Below are positions 30,512 to 39,836 of a stretch of DNA of 42,706 nt, piece after piece. Within the stretch, counting starts at the first letter, position 1, and every line of letters starts with the position of its first letter. A program made the position numbers and the translations under genes. The stretch comes from Flavobacteriales bacterium (GTDB taxonomy: Bacteria > Bacteroidota > Bacteroidia > Flavobacteriales_D > Sanyastnellaceae), in assembly GCA_947448135.1 (NCBI GenBank), contig CANFLZ010000018.1, forward strand, positions 1-42,706, read 5' to 3'. The notes under the pieces are model-generated. The model searched no databases. It had not been told where the DNA came from and saw nothing but the letters and a program-made list of their open reading frames with translations.

Positions 30512-31471
30512 TTAAGCTTCTACATATTTACCCATCGCACAGAATTTTTCGATTCGTTGCTTCACCAACTCATCGTTAGAATTCTTGCGTAAATCAGCAA
30601 TCGTAGACTGGATAACATCCTTTAAAATAGATATTGCTTGTTCGTGGTTGGCATGCGCTCCACCCAGCGGTTCTCTAATGATCCCATCGATCAATCCATT
30701 CCATTTCATGTCTTCTGCGGTTAATTTCAGGGCGCTTGCAGCAGTAACTTTATAATCCCAACTTCTCCACAAAATTGAAGAACATGATTCAGGAGAAATC
30801 ACCGAATACCAAGTATTTTCCATCATTAGAACTCGATCACCGATACCAATTCCCAAAGCACCACCCGAGGCTCCTTCACCGATAATGATACAGATGACAG
30901 GGACTTTTAATCGCATCATTTCAAAAAGATTTCTAGCAATCGCCTCTCCTTGACCTCTTTCTTCTGCCTCTAATCCTGGAAATGCACCAGGAGTATCGAT
31001 CAAGGTTACAATTGGCTTGTTGAACTTCTCCGCCAAACGCATGAGGCGCAAAGCTTTTCTATATCCTTCAGGGTTGGCCATACCGAAATTTCGGTATTGT
31101 CTCATTTTGGTATTGGCTCCTTTTTGTTGTCCGATGAACATAACAGATTCTCCATTGAGCAAACCAAAGCCACCAATCATTGCTTTATCATCTTTGACTG
31201 TACGGTCTCCGTGTAACTCTATCCAAGTTCCTTCAGTCATAGCCTCGATATACTCTAAAGCATACGGACGATCAGGATGACGGCTCAATTGAACACGTTG
31301 CCATGGATCCATATTCTTGTACAAATCTTCGGTTTTAGCAATCAATGCTTTTTCCAACTCTTGTACAGCGTTTTCCACATTGACTCCTGTCTTGACGGCA
31401 CTGTCCTTCAATTTTTGAATTTGTTCATTCAATTCTTTAATGGGTGCTTCAAAATCTAGATAATTCCTCAT
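30512..31471 (-). CDS. accA: Acetyl-CoA carboxylase carboxyltransferase subunit alpha
   Basis: AccA is the second half of the carboxyltransferase and binds carboxybiotin. The 319-residue product begins [20 protein letters not shown] with the N-terminal helical region. It contains [40 protein letters not shown] and the oxyanion region [20 protein letters not shown]. It follows rdgB by 38 bases. A one-mismatch -7 box in that gap may give it its own promoter, or it may be read from the men operon. Confidence 0.97.
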
Positions 31472-31509: not shown

Positions 31510-32106
31510 TTAAAACTTGTTTTGGTTTATCCAAGTAATCCAATTTTCAAATGCTTTGGCGCGATGCGATAATTGATTTTTCTCTTCCATGTGCATTTCC
31601 GCGAAGCTTCGAGAATTGCCTGAAGGAATAAAAATTGGATCATATCCAAATCCACCCCATCCTTGCAGCTGTCGAGCCACATGTCCTTCTACACGACCTT
31701 CAATGGTAAATTCTATTTGATTAAAAACTCCTGCGAGTACTGTAATAAAATAAGATTTTCGATTGACCTCGTTCTTCATTTCATCGAGCACTTTGGCTAT
31801 GTTGTTTTGATGATTGCCATGTTCTCCTGCATATCGGGCTGAAAGAACTCCAGGTTTGCCATTCAATGCTTCCACGCAAAATCCACTATCATCCGCAATA
31901 ATATTTCCCTTCCAGAATTCCTGAATGGCTCTAACTTTCAGCCAAGCATTGCCTTTGAAATCAGGAGCATTCTCCTCTACGTCTATGTTGATTCCAGCTT
32001 CGTTCAATCCGATTATTTTCCATGGCAAACGATTGGCCAATATCCAAGCTTGAACTTCTTCCAACTTATGGGCATTGTTGGTGGCCAATAATATTTCATT
32101 TTTCAT
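31510..32106 (-). CDS. rdgB: RdgB/HAM1-type inosine/xanthosine triphosphate pyrophosphatase
   Basis: The enzyme hydrolyses dITP, ITP and XTP and keeps them out of DNA and RNA. The product shows the family motifs ATNNAHKLEEVQ, ADDSGFCVEALNGKPGVLSA, GYDPIFIPSGNSRSFAEM and LSHRAKAFENW. The ATG at 32106 was preferred because it forms the ATGA overlap with the menE stop and matches the usual N terminus (198 residues). An ATG four codons upstream (32118) is also possible. It is the gene after menE and has no known link to menaquinone synthesis. Confidence 0.95.
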   Translation of the reverse strand: MKNEILLATNNAHKLEEVQAWILANRLPWKIIGLNEAGINIDVEENAPDFKGNAWLKVRAIQEFWKGNIIADDSGFCVEALNGKPGVLSARYAGEHGNHQNNIAKVLDEMKNEVNRKSYFITVLAGVFNQIEFTIEGRVEGHVARQLQGWGGFGYDPIFIPSGNSRSFAEMHMEEKNQLSHRAKAFENWITWINQNKF

Positions 32107-33089
32107 TTTCTTATCCATTTACCATTTTCATTGCGCGGTAATTCATCTACCCTTAAAATTAATTTGGGTTTGAGTCGAGGGGTACTTGCAAACCAATCCT
32201 GCCAATTATCTGGAATAACTGTTTCCTTTTGAATGACCCAAGTTACAATCTGTCCCCATTTTTCATCTGGAGAAGCCTTCACAAATCCAGAATCTTGCAT
32301 ATAATTTTGAATGATTTTTTCGACTTCGAGTGGATTGATTTTGACACCACCCGAGTTAATGATATCATCGATTCTTCCCTCAACAACGAATTCATTCTCC
32401 CCAATCCAATTTCCCAAGTCCGATGTAACTACTCGATGTTCCAGGACATTGTCATCGATTACAATTCCTTGATCAGACAATTCGAGATGAACTCCTTGAA
32501 CCGGTTTAAAACCCATGGTTCGGTCCATTCCATTCAATTTGCGAAGGGCGATATGGGTTAATGTTTCGGCAGCACCGTAGCTCTCCCAAATTTCATTTTT
32601 TACTGCTTGTGCTCTTTTGATTAAGCTCTGCTGAACCGGTGCTCCTCCTACTAATAATTTGGCATTGGGAAGGATGGATTCGTCCAATGAAAGAAAGGCT
32701 CCCAGCATCGGAGGTGTTAATGTCCACCATTCGACTTTATCAAGACTCCGGAAATCTTTGGCCTCGAATTTAACAGCGGGAATCATTTTCCAAACCGTTT
32801 GCTTTGAGATTACAGCCCGAAGAATATTCATTCTTCCCGCCACATATTGCATGGGCAAAGAATGCAATACTTCCATTCCTTCCTGCCAATGAAAAAAATC
32901 AGCCGTTCGAAACGTACTTCTTTCTATTTGTTGTCTTGTAAAAATGATTTCTTTGGCTTTTCCAGTTGTTCCTGACGAATGAAATGTAAACGTTGAATCA
33001 CCCTCCATCCATCGCTTCACCCAGTCCCATTCTTCAGAATAATTTTTTAATGATTCTGTAGGGAGGCCATTTTTCAATATCAACTCCAT
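32103..33089 (-). CDS. menE: o-Succinylbenzoate-CoA ligase
   Basis: MenE activates o-succinylbenzoate with ATP and CoA. The product has the AMP-binding P-loop HSSGTTGKAKEI (about 37-48), the motif WESYGAAETLTHIALRKLNG and the hinge region VEGRIDDIINSGGVKINPLE. The catalytic lysine segment near the C terminus is NENGKWIRK. It is short (328 residues) compared with about 480 in Bacillus, which is common in Bacteroidota. The ATG at 33089 overlaps menC by 10 bases. An upstream ATG at 33158 would overlap menC by 79 bases and adds residues without family similarity, so it was not used. Confidence 0.9.
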   Translation of the reverse strand: MELILKNGLPTESLKNYSEEWDWVKRWMEGDSTFTFHSSGTTGKAKEIIFTRQQIERSTFRTADFFHWQEGMEVLHSLPMQYVAGRMNILRAVISKQTVWKMIPAVKFEAKDFRSLDKVEWWTLTPPMLGAFLSLDESILPNAKLLVGGAPVQQSLIKRAQAVKNEIWESYGAAETLTHIALRKLNGMDRTMGFKPVQGVHLELSDQGIVIDDNVLEHRVVTSDLGNWIGENEFVVEGRIDDIINSGGVKINPLEVEKIIQNYMQDSGFVKASPDEKWGQIVTWVIQKETVIPDNWQDWFASTPRLKPKLILRVDELPRNENGKWIRK

Positions 33090-34096
33090 GGCGCTTTCCA
33101 AATTTGCTGATCGTTCCAAGTTAACATTTGCCCTTTGATTTGCATCGGACTCATCCAATTATTGGTATACAAACTACCAGTGCCCAAACCTTGAGGCATT
33201 TTAATGTCGTATTTCTGCAACCATTGAAATATGTGATACAATCCGATATTACTTTCCAAAGCAGAAGTAGCCCACCAACCGATTTTTAATTCTTCAGCAT
33301 GCTGGATCCATTCATCACACTCTAGCAATCCTCCGTGGAGGGTAGGTTTTAGAACAATAAAATGAGGCGACATATAAGACAACAATGAAAATTGATCTTC
33401 TCGTTTGACTTGGATTAATTCTTCGTCAAGTGCTATCGCAATTGGCGATTCCGAGCACACTCTTCTCATTTGATCCCATTGGTTGGGAGCAATGGGTTGT
33501 TCTATCGAGTGTATATTCAGTTTGGATAATTCCGCCATTTTTCTGAGCGCTTCATCTGCTTCCCAAGCACCATTGGCATCTAAACGAAGCGTGAAATCAT
33601 GGCCTCGTTGATTTCTTAACGATTTGATCAAGGCCAATTCATCGTTGAAGTTCAATGCACCCACTTTTATTTTGATACAATCAAAGCCAGCATCAAGCTT
33701 TTCGATCGCTTCAGTAAACATGGTTTCGATTTCATTCATCCAAATCAAACCATTGATCGGAATAGCCTTTTCAGGTTGATTAGCCATTTGGATATCTTGG
33801 AATAAACTATCCACTGCAAATTTCAAGGATGAAGGAAGTAGATCTCTCGAAATTTCCGCTCGACACCATTGCTTCCACAAATCTGGAAGCATGTCAACCC
33901 TTTCTTTCGATAGATGAGTAAGTGGCGCGCCTTCTAACCAATGAACTTTTTCTTCATGCTCGACAGCCGCATACCAAACACTGTGCTTGGTAAGCTGACT
34001 TTTAGAAGTTTTCGCAGGTCTTTTGAAGTTGAGATCCCAAATGCGAGACTCTATTTGTTTGAATTGTCTTTGGTTGAAATGTACTTGATTACCCAT
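33080..34096 (-). CDS. menC: o-Succinylbenzoate synthase (enolase superfamily)
   Basis: MenC dehydrates SHCHC to o-succinylbenzoate. The 338-residue product has the capping domain and barrel with the catalytic pair Lys142/Lys144 (CIKIKVG). Metal ligands are Asp173 (RLDANGAW), Glu199 (SIEQPI) and Asp224 (ALDEEL), and Lys250 (VLKPTLHGG) acts from the other side. It starts inside the end of the DUF418-like gene (46-base overlap) and its stop overlaps the start of menE, so translation of the three is probably coupled. No closer ATG fits the N terminus. Confidence 0.92.
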   Translation of the reverse strand: MGNQVHFNQRQFKQIESRIWDLNFKRPAKTSKSQLTKHSVWYAAVEHEEKVHWLEGAPLTHLSKERVDMLPDLWKQWCRAEISRDLLPSSLKFAVDSLFQDIQMANQPEKAIPINGLIWMNEIETMFTEAIEKLDAGFDCIKIKVGALNFNDELALIKSLRNQRGHDFTLRLDANGAWEADEALRKMAELSKLNIHSIEQPIAPNQWDQMRRVCSESPIAIALDEELIQVKREDQFSLLSYMSPHFIVLKPTLHGGLLECDEWIQHAEELKIGWWATSALESNIGLYHIFQWLQKYDIKMPQGLGTGSLYTNNWMSPMQIKGQMLTWNDQQIWKAPWS

Positions 34097-35160
34097 TCAA
34101 TAGGAGCGTATTTGTTGACCTTCCGTTTCCAAAAAAGAACGGACCAAATGGCAACACCCATAGCCATGAAGATGAATACCAATAATAATATCGGATAAGC
34201 AAAGCCTATCACAATGGTTCCACTAAAAGCAAATCCAGCCATATAAAGCGAACCAAGGATGTACATGATCAGCAGTAAGCTGTATTTGCTTGTAGACAAA
34301 TCCTTCACCTTATCAATCCAATTTCTGGGACCTAAAAGCTCAAAGCAATGGTTTAAAAAATTAGTGATGATCCAACCCAATCCGATTGAAATCAGAATAA
34401 AGGAAGGTTGATATACAAAGTTGTTAAATGGATAAAGAAACTTGGATACGAAAGCATCGACCGGAGCATATAAGTTGACGCAATAGATGTTCGTAGCAAA
34501 TCCTAAAATCAAAATAAAAATGGCAATAAAGGACGTTGGCGGAAAGAAACCTCGAGGACGCAACACGCCTTTACCAACTGCCATACCACTCATGAATGCA
34601 GCTACCCATGGAAAAATAGAATAGTATCCATTGAAAAAAACAAATGAAATCAATTTGAATACACCATCCGATTGCACATCAAATACAAAATATTTGTATC
34701 GGAAAGGAATATCCAAATTGACCAGGACCAAAGAGATTAAAATGACGGCCAGTGAAATGGCATGAATAGTCAACGAATCAAGACGTAATAGGGCGGAAGA
34801 TATCAAGTAAGATGCACCGATAATTATAAAAATATTGATTCCCCAAACCGGCGCAAATGCCATTCCGATAGTCAATAACAATGCACCTTTTCGTTGTGAA
34901 TTCAACTTCAACTTTTGTACACTCTGAGCCTTGTTTTTCGATTGAATCGCCAAACCAACACCCAATAAAAAAAGAAAGATTGCTGGAATCCAATCGAAGT
35001 AAGAGAAGTAAACAGGGATTTGCATTTTCTTGACATCAATCAGAGAAAAAATTCCACCTATTGTGATGAAAGAAATAACTCCAGCAGTAGCCAATGCGAA
35101 AATCAACAAAGCAAAACTTACCCCATTAAAATGTGCCACCTTATTTTTAGAACTACTCAT
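34051..35160 (-). CDS. Polytopic membrane protein, DUF418/DUF1624-like
   Basis: The 369-residue protein has about nine to ten hydrophobic segments. The first is FALLIFALATAGVISFITIG, and others include FLFLLGVGLAIQ and PWVAAFMSGMAVGKG. The C terminus includes KYAPIEWVIKYIS, which resembles the GPLEWLLR-type ending of DUF418 (YeiB-like) and DUF1624 acyltransferase-related proteins. The similarity is weak and the usual catalytic His near the N terminus is not obvious. It lies between menA (12 bases) and menC (46-base overlap), so it is expressed with menaquinone genes. No function in that pathway is known. A transporter or acyltransferase role is possible. Confidence 0.65.
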   Translation of the reverse strand: MSSSKNKVAHFNGVSFALLIFALATAGVISFITIGGIFSLIDVKKMQIPVYFSYFDWIPAIFLFLLGVGLAIQSKNKAQSVQKLKLNSQRKGALLLTIGMAFAPVWGINIFIIIGASYLISSALLRLDSLTIHAISLAVILISLVLVNLDIPFRYKYFVFDVQSDGVFKLISFVFFNGYYSIFPWVAAFMSGMAVGKGVLRPRGFFPPTSFIAIFILILGFATNIYCVNLYAPVDAFVSKFLYPFNNFVYQPSFILISIGLGWIITNFLNHCFELLGPRNWIDKVKDLSTSKYSLLLIMYILGSLYMAGFAFSGTIVIGFAYPILLLVFIFMAMGVAIWSVLFWKRKVNKYAPIEWVIKYISTKDNSNK

Positions 35161-35172
35161 GATTGTTCGAAC

Positions 35173-36057
35173 TTACAAAAAAGATGTGACAATCAACAAT
35201 ATCACTGTAAAAAAACAAGCCAAGGCAAACTTCTTTAAAAAAGGATCCAATCGACTTGGCTGATTCTCCTCGATGATTGACCAAGCATTTGCTCCAAGCA
35301 AAAGGCAAGGCAGTATTGAAAACCATTGTATCCAAGATGATTTCTCTAAAAACAATAGAGAAATGCATGCTGTTATGAATAACGCAATCAAATATCGCTT
35401 GCTTCCTTTCCAACCCAATCGCAAGGCCAAGGTGTGTTTACCTGCTCTGGCATCATCATCCATGTCCCGCATGTTATTGAGGTGAAGGACAGCCACCGCC
35501 ATGCTTCCAATGAACAAAACTCGAGGCAACAAATCAATAGAAATATGATTGTAAAGAACAAAATGAGTACCTCCAACACCAACCCATCCAAAGAAAATAA
35601 ACACAGACAAATCACCCAAACCGACATAGCCATAAGGGCGAGGACCTGCGGTGTAGGTATAAGCAGCAATGATAGCGGCCACGCCAATTCCCAACATCAT
35701 CCAAAAATCTCCCCAGCGATCATTGACCAAAAGCGTTTGATAGATCAACATCGAACCCAGTAAAAGGGACAAAGCGATCATCCAAAGAATAGCAATTTTC
35801 ATTTGTGCGACAGAGATTTCGCCCGACTGCACCGCTCTGCTTGGACCGACACTTCTTACTTGATCTGCCCCATTTTGAAAATCTCCCAAATCATTGGCTA
35901 GATTAGAAAGAATTTGCAGCATTGAAGCTGTCAAAATAGCCAAAATTGTTCCTTGAATATTCCAAGATGATTCTGACAGAGGCATTGCCCCCATTAAAAT
36001 GCCAGACACCGCCAAAGGCAAGGTTCTGGGCCTAGCAGCAGAAACCCACTTTTTCAT
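35173..36057 (-). CDS. menA: 1,4-Dihydroxy-2-naphthoate polyprenyltransferase
   Basis: MenA attaches the isoprenoid tail to DHNA in the inner membrane, giving demethylmenaquinone. The 294-residue product starts [20 protein letters not shown] and has about eight to nine membrane segments. It carries the two aspartate motifs of UbiA-type prenyltransferases: NLANDLGDFQNGADQVRSVG (about 52-71) and NNMRDMDDDARAGKHTLALR (near 196). Its ATG shares one base with the menB stop (TAATG), indicating translational coupling. Confidence 0.96.
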   Translation of the reverse strand: MKKWVSAARPRTLPLAVSGILMGAMPLSESSWNIQGTILAILTASMLQILSNLANDLGDFQNGADQVRSVGPSRAVQSGEISVAQMKIAILWMIALSLLLGSMLIYQTLLVNDRWGDFWMMLGIGVAAIIAAYTYTAGPRPYGYVGLGDLSVFIFFGWVGVGGTHFVLYNHISIDLLPRVLFIGSMAVAVLHLNNMRDMDDDARAGKHTLALRLGWKGSKRYLIALFITACISLLFLEKSSWIQWFSILPCLLLGANAWSIIEENQPSRLDPFLKKFALACFFTVILLIVTSFL

Positions 36058-36872
36058 TATGGGAACTTGGGGAACTGTTGAAAATCAGGATCTCTTTTTT
36101 CCAAAAATGCCTTTTTACCTTCCTGCGCTTCTTGTGTCAAATAATACAACAAAGTAGCATCTCCGGCAAACTCCATCAAACCGCGTTGTCCATCCAACTC
36201 TGCATTCAAACCACGTTTGATCATGCGAATTGCCAATGGGCTTCGCTTCATAATGGTTTTGCACCAGTGGATAGTTGTTTCCTCAAGATCACTTAAAGGA
36301 ACAACCTTATTCACCATTCCCATATCCATGGCCTCTTGGGCCGTATACTGCTCACACAAAAACCAAATTTCACGTGCCTTTTTTTGACCCACGTGACGAG
36401 CCAAATAATTCGATCCAAACCCAGCATCAAACGAACCAACCTTTGGTCCAGTTTGACCAAAACGAGCGTTGTCCGAAGCGATTGTCAAATCACAAACGAC
36501 ATGTAAAACGTGTCCTCCACCAATCGCGTAGCCATTGACCATGGCAATGACAGGTTTTGGAATTTCACGAATTCTTTTGTGAAGATCCAAAACATTTAAA
36601 CGCGGCACCCCATTCTCATCAACGTATCCACCAACGCCCTTCACATTTTGATCTCCTCCACTACAAAACGCCTTATCGCCCATTCCGGTTAGAACGATTA
36701 CAGCAATGTCCTGACGTTCACGGCAGATATCCATGGCATCAATCATATCCACATTTGTTTGCGGACGGAAGGCATTGTAAACTTCTGGACGATTGATGGT
36801 GATTTTTGCAATCCCATCATACCATTGAAAAAGAATATCTGAATATTCCTTAATTGTTTTCCACTCTCTCAT
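36057..36872 (-). CDS. menB: 1,4-Dihydroxy-2-naphthoyl-CoA synthase
   Basis: MenB closes the ring of o-succinylbenzoyl-CoA. The product is a crotonase-fold enzyme with [51 protein letters not shown] and [20 protein letters not shown]. The QTG triplet in the last segment is typical of the bicarbonate-dependent (type I) MenB of Escherichia coli. The C terminus [12 protein letters not shown] is also typical. The ATG at 36872 ([12 protein letters not shown], 271 residues) matches homologues. An ATG 7 codons upstream is possible but lengthens the overlap with menD from 23 to 44 bases. Confidence 0.96.
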
Positions 36873-38517
36873 TTTGTTGCTTATAAAATTCAAAAAACAA
36901 ATCTAATTCATTTGGGTTCACAGCACTTGGAGTTTTAACGACCAAAACTGCGTGTTGCTTGTCTTCGAAAAAAGAACGTAAGTCCTGTTCAGATGGCTCT
37001 TCCAATTCCAATACATTCAGCCCCCAACCTCGCACCCATTGGGCGATATTGCGTTGATGTGGTGTTTCGAAAAAATAAGGAACCGAAGGTTCATTTTTGG
37101 CACCCTCGATAATTTTAAAAATACCTCCCCCCCCATTGTCCACTGCAACAATCTTCAAGTTATTTGGCCATGGCAAATGCCACAATCCATTTGCATCATA
37201 GAAAAAAGACAAATCACCCGTTACAAAAACAACAGGGCGATTGGATGCCAAAGCCGCTCCTACCGCGGTGCTCGTTGAACCATCAATTCCGCTTACACCT
37301 CTATTTCCAAAAAAGCGAAGGTCCTTTCGCTGATCAAACAACTGAATATATCGTACTGCGGAACTATTGCCCATTTGAATCATAGCTCCTTGAGGCCATG
37401 CATTGCTTAGATGGTGAAACAACTTCACATCAGAAAATGGTCGTGACTCGAAATATTGTTTCCAATTGACCGCAATCATTTCTGATTGCGTCGTAGCAAT
37501 ATTGAACTGACCACTATGGATTTCAATTGACCATTGGTCTAAAAAGTTTTCTACGGAACAGTTGAATACTGTTGGCGAAAGTCGGTAGGTATCAATTGGA
37601 TCTTTTTGCCATTGAATGGACCAATGCGACTTGGCCTTCTTTCTGATCAAGGCTTTAATTTTTCTTGAAATAATGTTGTGTCCCAGAGAAATGACAACAT
37701 CCCATTGGAGTAAATCCAGTTCCTTTTGCGACAATGACATAATCCATCGATCGATGCAATCAATGCCACCCAAACCATGCAGGTTGCTGTGTGTCTCAGT
37801 GAGAATTAAAACATTAGAAAATTGTGAAATCATCTTCACCCTTTCCACTAAATTATCATCGTTATTTTGACCAAAAAGCAACAGATATTTTTTCTCAGGA
37901 TCGAATCCAATTTTGAAGGAATCCTTTTTCTTCTCAGAATGGGCAATGGACATCTGTGTTTCCTCAATAGCAGATGGGGACTCCAGGTACAATGGCTCTT
38001 GAAATGGCACATTAATATGCACTGGACCCAAAGGAAAATTCTTCGAGCTTTCAAAAATCTCATCAATCATCTGGTGGTTTGCGATGACATCTTCAAGCGC
38101 ATTGGCTTCCTCGATTAGCGAACACTGGGATTTGATAAAATTGCTATATATACCTATTTGATCAATGCACTGCCCCTCGCTTTGATTGATGCTTTCTGCC
38201 GGCCGGTCTGCTGTTATTACGATCAAAGGAATCTCTTGATAAAAAGCTTCTGCAATAGCAGGTGCATAATTCAAAGGAGCTGTTCCAGAGGTGCATATAA
38301 GAACAACTGGAGTCTTGGTTTGTTGGGCCAAACCCAAGGCAAAAAAAGCTGCACTTCTTTCGTCCACTTTAATGTGGACCGAAAAATGAGGATTCCCATC
38401 TAAACTGATTGCAAATGGTGCATTTCTTGAACCTGGAGAATAAACGATATTTTTAATTCCACGTTCTTGAAGAAGAAACATTATAGATTGAACAGCTGTT
38501 TTATTGGAAATGCGCAT
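36850..38517 (-). CDS. menD: SEPHCHC synthase (thiamine diphosphate enzyme)
   Basis: MenD joins isochorismate and 2-oxoglutarate, the first committed step of menaquinone synthesis. The product has the three-domain ThDP fold: [19 protein letters not shown], catalytic Glu53 ([15 protein letters not shown]), [20 protein letters not shown] and [10 protein letters not shown]. The cofactor region is [18 protein letters not shown] followed by [16 protein letters not shown]. The ATG at 38517 (MRISNKTAV, 555 residues) was chosen over a TTG three codons upstream. It overlaps menF by 17 bases. Confidence 0.96.
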
Positions 38518-39427
38518 CGCCGGCAAAGATAAACGCTTGACGCTTCCACTCTGTCTCCAACCATTCCGATTGTGGTAAACTTTCTTTCATTACTCCACCT
38601 CCCACAAATCCAACGGTCTTGTCCGTTTGCCAATGACAACATCGAAGCAAAACAATCGACCAAGCATTTTCATCTACAGTGATATTGAGCAAACCCCCAT
38701 ATAAGTCCCTATGATAACCTTCATATTGGCTCAACCAATTTTGTGCACTTCGTTTGGGCCAGCCGCAAAGCGCTGGAGTTGGATGCAGCGCACTGACCAA
38801 CTGCTGCCAATTTCCATCGTAAGTGGCCGTCATCTCGGTCATCAGATGCTTGACATTTTTGTAAGGTTGTTCGAGAAGTGCCGAAACTTGAATATTTCGC
38901 GCACCGGATTGATCAAGCGTTTTTTGAATCATATCCACCACAACTTGGTGTTCTTGTAATTCTTTCGTTGTCCAATCTGAAGAATCCTCAATACTCTTCG
39001 ATCCGGCGAGAGCCATTGTCTGAATCAAGTTCTCCTTTTTGTACAACAACAATTCAGGAGATGCTCCCATCCACAATCCCCATTGGGGATGATTGAAACA
39101 GAAAATAAACGCCTCAGGGAATTGCAAAATCCAACGATGAATTTGCGACTCCCATTGCTCCAGCGCATAACCGACTTCAAATTTTCTACTGGTAACAATC
39201 TTCTGAATTTCACCCAACTCAATTTCTTTCACCGCTTGCGCAACCAAATTCTGATATTGCTCTTCCGTACAATATAACTCGTCATTGATGTCTCGACGTT
39301 TAGGGTCAAAAGAGATCACTTGATTGCTGTCATTCCAAGTCTGCAACAAAACCTCACCACCGAATTTATTGGGAAGTTTGAGCCAGATACCCCATTCATT
39401 TTCGTGAATGATTTGTGACAAATTCAT
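38501..39427 (-). CDS. menF: Isochorismate synthase
   Basis: The product converts chorismate to isochorismate. It has the chorismate-binding fold with EIQKIVTSRKFEVG, WGLWMGASPELLLYKKENLI, QTMALAGSK, LQEHQVVVDMIQ, ALHPTPALCGWPKRSAQNW and YEGYHRDLYGGLLN. The assignment to isochorismate synthase rather than anthranilate or aminodeoxychorismate synthase rests mainly on its place before menD. At 308 residues it is shorter than the 350-430 usual for MenF; the missing part is N-terminal, while the catalytic half is complete. It starts 1 base after the menI stop. Confidence 0.93.
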   Translation of the reverse strand: MNLSQIIHENEWGIWLKLPNKFGGEVLLQTWNDSNQVISFDPKRRDINDELYCTEEQYQNLVAQAVKEIELGEIQKIVTSRKFEVGYALEQWESQIHRWILQFPEAFIFCFNHPQWGLWMGASPELLLYKKENLIQTMALAGSKSIEDSSDWTTKELQEHQVVVDMIQKTLDQSGARNIQVSALLEQPYKNVKHLMTEMTATYDGNWQQLVSALHPTPALCGWPKRSAQNWLSQYEGYHRDLYGGLLNITVDENAWSIVLLRCCHWQTDKTVGFVGGGVMKESLPQSEWLETEWKRQAFIFAGDAHFQ

Positions 39428-39428
39428 T

Positions 39429-39836
39429 TTAGGACTTGGATTGTTTGATCATTGAAGTCAATTTGGCTTTGGCAATTGCATCTCCTTCTTCATCAAGGAT
39501 ATCGATGTTCCATACATGAATGTTTCTGCCAATTTTTATTGGTGTGGCAATCCCTGTCACAAAGCCATGTCTTTTGGACTTGAGGTGGGTAATATTCAAA
39601 TCAACGCCCACCGCAATGCTGTTGTTTTTTTGAGCGATCAAGAAAGATCCCACGCTGGCAACTGTCTCAGCCAAAGCAGCACTAGCTCCACCGTGTAAAA
39701 TTCCGTATGGTTGATGCGTGCGCTTGTCTACTGGCATTGTTGCAACAACTTTTGATTCTGTCATCTCCACCATCTCAATACCCAATGCCCCTAGCAAAGT
39801 ATGATTTGCCCATTCTTCCATTAACTTCTTGTCCAT
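39429..39836 (-). CDS. menI: Hotdog-fold thioesterase, probable DHNA-CoA hydrolase
   Basis: The 135-residue protein is a PaaI/YdiI-type hotdog thioesterase. The stretch MPVDKRTHQPYGILHGGASA is nearly the same as in Escherichia coli MenI (YdiI), and the catalytic glutamate is Glu57 in AALAET. Other conserved parts are VGVDLNITHLKSKRHGFV and GRNIHVWNIDILDEEGDAI. MenI releases 1,4-dihydroxy-2-naphthoate from its CoA ester, the step between MenB and MenA. Its position as first gene of the men operon, 1 base before menF, supports this function over general acyl-CoA cleanup. Confidence 0.85.
   Translation of the reverse strand: MDKKLMEEWANHTLLGALGIEMVEMTESKVVATMPVDKRTHQPYGILHGGASAALAETVASVGSFLIAQKNNSIAVGVDLNITHLKSKRHGFVTGIATPIKIGRNIHVWNIDILDEEGDAIAKAKLTSMIKQSKS

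Follow-up and report, generated by a model that had tools for sequence, protein, structure and literature searches.

Why should a gene for a multi-pass membrane protein stand between menA and menC, and does its product have any part in menaquinone synthesis? The question is raised by a stretch of 42,706 nucleotides from a Flavobacteriales bacterium, referred to here as the window, in which this place is taken by an ORF of 369 aa with an ATG start (34051..35160, minus strand). The protein is called X in what follows. The original prediction had described a membrane protein between the two genes with a 46-base overlap into menC, and both features were borne out.

The X gene and its operon

The setting of X is a classical menaquinone operon, read on the minus strand in the order MenI-like thioesterase, menF, menD, menB, menA, X, menC, menE, rdgB and accA. 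The men genes and rdgB were named via Pfam and NCBIfam. NCBIfam matches over the cut-off were obtained for menD (36850-38526), menB (36057-36893) and menA, the DHNA polyprenyltransferase gene (35173-36057; TIGR00751, 230.5 bits). Those of the MenI-like thioesterase (39429-39836) and menF (38501-39427) fell below the curated cut-offs. Matches below the cut-off were also given by menC, for o-succinylbenzoate synthase (33080-34096; TIGR01927, E 5e-33, curated cut-off), and by menE, for o-succinylbenzoate-CoA ligase (32103-33158; TIGR01923, E 4.7e-32). All four of these genes fit by E-value and gene order. The gene rdgB lies at 31510-32118 and is followed by an ORF that we take to be accA (30512-31471); the two are found downstream of menE in many operons of the family, whether X is present or not. 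The MenE of the window is short (351 aa), and its TIGR01923 match covers positions 108-439 only, the N-terminal part of the model being unmatched.

The stop of menA is separated from the start of X by 12 nt, and the 3' end of X overlaps the start of menC by 46 nt (34051..34096, minus strand). A menC start at -46 is present in three further species of the window's genus (L023-L025), and 6 of 16 further loci have one at -40, all of them candidate, unmapped starts.

Occurrence of X and its linkage to men genes

Of 60 relatives examined by protein search, 21 carry X, every one of them within the window's own family group (f1), and a profile search across the family retrieved it in 39/114. Twenty homologue regions and three more were fetched and the men genes mapped there by tblastn, and a further 26 named loci came from scanning the contigs of GTDB genomes, 13 of them duplicating regions already fetched. 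When every locus in hand is taken, with identical proteins counted once and the window included, there are 38 distinct X.

Directly downstream of X, menC was found in 35/35 assessable loci of this set, and menA was directly upstream in 26 of the 34 assessable for it. In the eight loci without menA in front of X (L101, L102, L104, L105, L107, L110, L115 and L118) the operon is broken just upstream of X, and menC still lies behind X in the seven where it would be visible, the contig of L115 stopping before menC. In L105, menD-menB-menA is located elsewhere on the contig. The constant partner of X is therefore menC and not menA (35/35 vs 26/34), and menA was dropped as its primary link given the eight of 34 assessable loci in which X stands without menA in front. 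The expectation that linkage to menA-menC would be conserved across relatives thus stands for menC and only in part for menA. The X-menC linkage recurs across genera, so that it is not the peculiarity of a single genome on which the original prediction was to fall.

Some further features of these loci were recorded. In five of the menA-less loci (L102, L107, L118, L115 and L101) a pair of genes stands ahead of X at a distance of 30-92 nt, the first of the two being MBOAT O-acyltransferase-like by eye, and in four of the five a uvrA-like gene on the opposite strand is ahead of that pair. The gene before X in the remaining menA-less loci, also read by eye, is a divergent uvrA-like gene (one locus) or a secreted-protein gene (two). 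Even in broken operons rdgB keeps its place behind menE. No menB match was found in the stretches examined of L038, L040, L132, L134 and L135, though menD and menA are present there. The X of G067 has one in-frame TAG; its contig is short and the genome 71% complete. The X frame of L112 is broken after 73 aa.

With regard to absence, 18 family genomes were searched for menA and menC, 14 of which have no X by profile. In 11 of these 14, menA and menC adjoin, six of them having been checked in larger stretches; in G064, menC is at the contig start and there is no menA; and in G006 and G020 neither menA nor menC was found and X is missing as well. The last two genomes carry MenG over the cut-off and have a completeness of 92% and 96%, which leaves an assembly gap or a loss of the classical pathway as explanations. 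The other families of the order were represented by 24 genomes, and none of these was found to have X in the menA-menC slot. In 16 of them menA adjoins menC without X, and in the other eight menA was not within the stretch fetched around menC. Profile searches outside the family covered 305 genomes of the order (at most 6 candidates each) and 392 of the phylum (at most 5 candidates each); as the phylum was sampled in part and the candidates per genome were limited, cases of X could be missed. X as a men gene of wider distribution in Bacteroidota was rejected, as the matches fetched or located outside the family had no adjoining menA or menC. Of the loci outside the family, L125 and L169 carry weak menE-like matches and L123 an rdgB match.

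A tree was built from six operon proteins by a quick search, with SH-aLRT support only. Ten of the 11 X-less family rows form one clade beside X-bearing genera (support 100), and only this clade is relied on here: the outgroup does not form one side of a branch, L155 has a long branch, and several rows have an odd composition or less than half of their positions filled. The X-less G023 and the X-bearing G011 and G030 fall among the outgroup rows. The presence of X needs four changes on this tree, whose root and event count are provisional, and may reflect an early entry of X into the menA-menC junction and later loss. Since one family clade has intact men genes without X, X is dispensable there.

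X was also considered as a replacement for MenH or MenG, and this was rejected, the patterns of both being identical with and without X. MenG (TIGR01934) is over the cut-off in 24/24 genomes of the family group and MenH (TIGR03695) in 0/24; the latter model is strict and passes in only 3 of 14 control genomes, so that its silence means little. With this strict model, no clear gene for the SHCHC synthase step was seen in the 24 genomes.

Fold, residues and constraint of X

The window X gave no useful match in Pfam (best E 0.16) or NCBIfam (0.069), the best matches in both being to unrelated families. Four orthologues were scanned with HMMs of the TmAT clan (DUF418, PF04235; HGSNAT_cat, PF07786; Acyl_transf_3, PF01757). 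The syntenic orthologue L036 scored 42.9 bits with DUF418 (cut-off 23.6) and 34.8 with HGSNAT_cat (cut-off 22), and a second one, L038, passed the HGSNAT_cat cut-off with 26.4 bits; L028 and L030 gave no TmAT-clan match. An AlphaFold (AF2) model was obtained from alignment A3, which comprises the window protein and 25 of the 26 named loci (L112 was dropped), with a pTM of 0.85 and a mean pLDDT of 79. Foldseek placed human HGSNAT at the top (probability 1.00, E 0.02), with no match at E <=0.001. In VIA-align the model reached Z 21.8 over 294 residues against HGSNAT and Z 15.2 against GWT1, the best non-TmAT folds being unrelated transporters at Z 5.7 or less, and the core of 10 TM helices of the TmAT fold is found in X. 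In sequence searches of the PDB, the X profile (A1) retrieved nothing up to E 10 and one relative nothing up to E 1, and the profile of the relatives (A4) retrieved HGSNAT as its sole match (E 0.006). The Z values for HGSNAT and GWT1 are far above that of the next fold, and with the matches of the orthologues they give X a TmAT fold and an origin in the HGSNAT/YeiB branch, an assignment that we hold to be almost certain. The term DUF418/DUF1624-like used at the outset was therefore right in substance, with two of four syntenic orthologues over the DUF418 and/or HGSNAT_cat cut-offs and the fold in agreement.

The positions that TmAT proteins have in common, located for the most part in the acyl-CoA site, are described in PMC12423673, where the TMH1 Arg is reported as essential in HGSNAT, OafB and OacB. 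X was aligned with six DUF418/HGSNAT relatives, the register of HGSNAT (D272, R275, N286) being counted by eye. The tally comprised 49 distinct sequences, the 38 X and 11 relatives outside men loci, split by profile score (at least 176.8 vs at most 135.1) and without use of the Arg; TMH1 was counted over 33 X, five N-terminally cut sequences being left out. All 11 relatives read D, R, N, Y and H at the five positions. The TMH1 Arg is present in 0/33 X vs 11/11 relatives. Among X, the TMH1 Asp is found in 21/33, the TM1 Asn in 7/33 (one genus group), the TM9 Tyr in 13/38 and the TM9 His in 5/38. By alignment to the relatives and to HGSNAT D272/R275, the DxxR position is S-F-A-L in the window X (codons 15-18, 35107..35118, minus strand), so that DxxR is lacking in TMH1. 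In the window's genus the TMH1 Asp is gone too, as is the TM9 Tyr, whose position is Leu in the window X and in four other aligned members of the genus. In the region of the TMH3 Arg the window X has R-K vs K-R in the relatives, in an uncertain register. The position of HGSNAT Asn286 is Ile in the window X, and its Asp56 is in the D307 register with no His in that loop (by eye); the combination of Asn286 with His297-Asp307 given for HGSNAT in PMC11199644 is thus not found in it.

Other features were kept. The TM6 Gly is present in 38/38 X and 11/11 relatives, the FxxxxG of TMH2 is found with both F and G in the window X (F in 28/33 and G in 30/33 of X overall), and among the X that reach them the C-terminal Pro is found in 36/36 and the Glu in 35/36. 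Asp at the D307 register is present in 16 of 18 rows of A3, and the site has therefore not been wholly erased. By eye, a His is seen close to the H297 register in some X; it is not fixed in register and for this reason was not counted as kept. It must also be considered that GWT1, a TmAT acyltransferase, works without the D of DxxR and without the catalytic His, according to PMC12423673, so the missing residues do not prove X inactive. As it falls short on the Arg, Tyr and Asn features, X does not qualify as a TmAT acyltransferase. Judged from its sequence, canonical acyl transfer by X appears unlikely, not impossible; X is probably no longer a canonical acyltransferase, and the X lineage would be a good candidate for a pseudoenzyme of TmAT fold. 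The suggestion of an unrelated acyltransferase carried along in the operon is weakened for a canonical acyltransferase, the Arg being absent in 33/33, and may otherwise hold.

The conservation tally of A3, in which a redundancy and length filter removed 7 of 26 rows, points to three stretches on the minus strand. The best conserved one is N-G-Y-Y-S at the break of TM6 (codons 177-181, 34618..34632). RPRGFFPPTS (codons 201-210, 34531..34560) is in the loop after TM6, which is predicted to be cytosolic because TmAT proteins have the DxxR end of their TMH1 on that side; the loop motif RPRG..PPSS is absent from the older orthologues L036-L040. The third, PIEWVIKYIS (codons 353-362, 34075..34104), is in the C-terminal helix and matches the GPLE..mRkiS end of DUF418. 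This P.EW..K helix is well conserved in A3 and extends into the menC overlap.

Pairwise comparison of L023, L024 and L025, three species from the genus of the window, gave X a dN/dS of 0.020, 0.024 and 0.026, with dS >1 in two of the pairs and agreement of the third (dS 0.35). The neighbouring genes gave 0.077-0.138 (menA), 0.143-0.157 (menC), 0.088-0.119 (menD), 0.132-0.210 (menE), 0.103-0.129 (menF) and 0 to 0.006 (menB), and within this one genus, of the seven men-operon genes compared, menB alone is more constrained than X. The menC overlap (about 46 nt of X) is too small to account for these low values. In the window's genus, X is a functional protein and not a decaying passenger. The link with menaquinone genes that had been predicted is supported by the linkage across genera together with this strong purifying selection.

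Possible roles and comparison with known systems

Computation establishes the fold and descent of X and the genes to which it is linked, and also that none of the members examined keeps the Arg and that X is constrained within the window's genus. On this basis we propose that a TmAT descendant of the HGSNAT/YeiB branch may have entered the menA-menC junction in one Flavobacteriales family and been retained by selection. X would no longer perform canonical trans-membrane acyl transfer and could be a membrane-embedded accessory, either an anchor or a reshaped pocket for a lipid or CoA thioester. Through it the soluble stage of MenC and MenE, with o-succinylbenzoate and its CoA ester, would be drawn to the membrane at which DHNA would later be prenylated by MenA, and the NGYYS break, the cytosolic loop and the C-terminal helix may form the pocket and the docking faces. 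Strong selection and menC linkage suggest, in this regard, an unrecognised helper in menaquinone (vitamin-K2) synthesis. That X acts in or for menaquinone synthesis we consider rather probable, and that it is a non-catalytic accessory rather than an enzyme falls somewhat short of an even chance. The statement as a whole, of a TmAT descendant kept by selection as a membrane accessory of menaquinone synthesis nearest MenC/MenE, is put forward tentatively. Its most detailed form, an accessory stripped of its acyl-CoA grip that holds the CoA-thioester stage of MenC/MenE, channels intermediates to MenA and was lost in one clade, is doubtful. The joint absence of menA, menC and X from G006 and G020 was counted in favour of the accessory reading; the X-menC overlap, which could mechanically hold the pair together, counts against it. 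Taken together, the rival readings outweigh this favoured one.

Hitch-hiking in the operon is a serious rival. X would then be a passenger, or act elsewhere in membrane biology, and would keep its place in a stable housekeeping operon because its translation is coupled to that of menC. In agreement with this, rdgB and accA, for which we know of no menaquinone role, are likewise stable in the operon, so that linkage alone is no proof of X function. Additionally, X overlaps or abuts menC in the loci measured, and rearrangements splitting the pair would therefore damage menC; X is also cleanly missing from one clade. However, X is second only to menB in constraint among the seven men-operon genes of the genus, and the 11 stronger profile matches outside men loci are Arg-bearing DUF418/HGSNAT relatives and not X, and we consider this reading unlikely, though by no means negligible.

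X could also be a working acyltransferase with altered acyl-CoA recognition, like GWT1, that uses a membrane or periplasmic substrate and is merely co-expressed with the men genes. The fold is kept, together with the Phe and Gly of TM2, the Gly of TM6 and the D307-register Asp (D56 in X), and GWT1 sets the precedent for activity without the full DxxR or the His; the His near the H297 register of some X and the MBOAT-like pair ahead of X in five loci, both read by eye, are in line with it. These points are set against the absence of the TMH1 Arg, the scarcity of the Asn, Tyr and His, the further loss of the TMH1 Asp and the Tyr in the window's genus, and the company of menC in every assessable locus, and we judge such an enzyme unlikely, if well short of far-fetched. 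Finally, the old acyl-CoA pore might let X carry or flip a precursor of the quinone (OSB, DHNA), or the product itself, from one side of the membrane to the other, HGSNAT having a through-membrane acetyl-CoA pore (PMC11199644). X adjoins menA in most loci, and transporters are the best non-TmAT matches of its model, yet at the low Z values given above. We know of no need for precursor transport in the menaquinone pathway, and this reading is improbable.

The TMH1 Arg is gone in every member of X examined, yet in the genus measured X is more constrained than most of the adjoining enzymes. To our knowledge there is no membrane-embedded accessory factor of classical menaquinone synthesis; if X serves this pathway, it would be the first accessory factor of it that we know of. 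The existence of clades with and without X, with operons otherwise similar, makes the question testable. In the open-licence literature, no paper joining menaquinone biosynthesis with DUF1624 or heparan-alpha-glucosaminide was found.

Among known systems, UbiJ and UbiK of the ubiquinone metabolon, as accessory proteins of quinone synthesis (PMC9499169), resemble X in concept only. UbiJ has an SCP2 domain (PMC9499169), and the pathway is a different one. GWT1/PIG-W shares the TmAT fold and also deviates from DxxR and lacks the catalytic His; unlike X, it is a eukaryotic inositol acyltransferase, solved with palmitoyl-CoA according to its entry title, and no sequence match to X was found. HGSNAT (HGSNAT_cat, PF07786) is like X in the TmAT fold, the D307-register Asp of most A3 rows and the TM6 Gly. 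It differs in that X is without the TMH1 Arg (R275 in HGSNAT) in 33/33 and without the Asn (N286) in 26/33, that the window X has no His at H297, and that X is bacterial and lies in a menaquinone operon. The DUF418/YeiB-type proteins (PF04235) share with X the PW..F..G..gR core, a GP.E end at the C-terminus and, in the case of several older orthologues, the R..G.D start, and L036 exceeds the Pfam cut-off; in contrast, the window X is below detection, all or most X no longer have the R, N, Y and H found in the relatives, and the location of X is tied to menC. What is new here is a TmAT-fold protein without the acyl-CoA Arg that is tied to a menaquinone operon, the fold itself being known.
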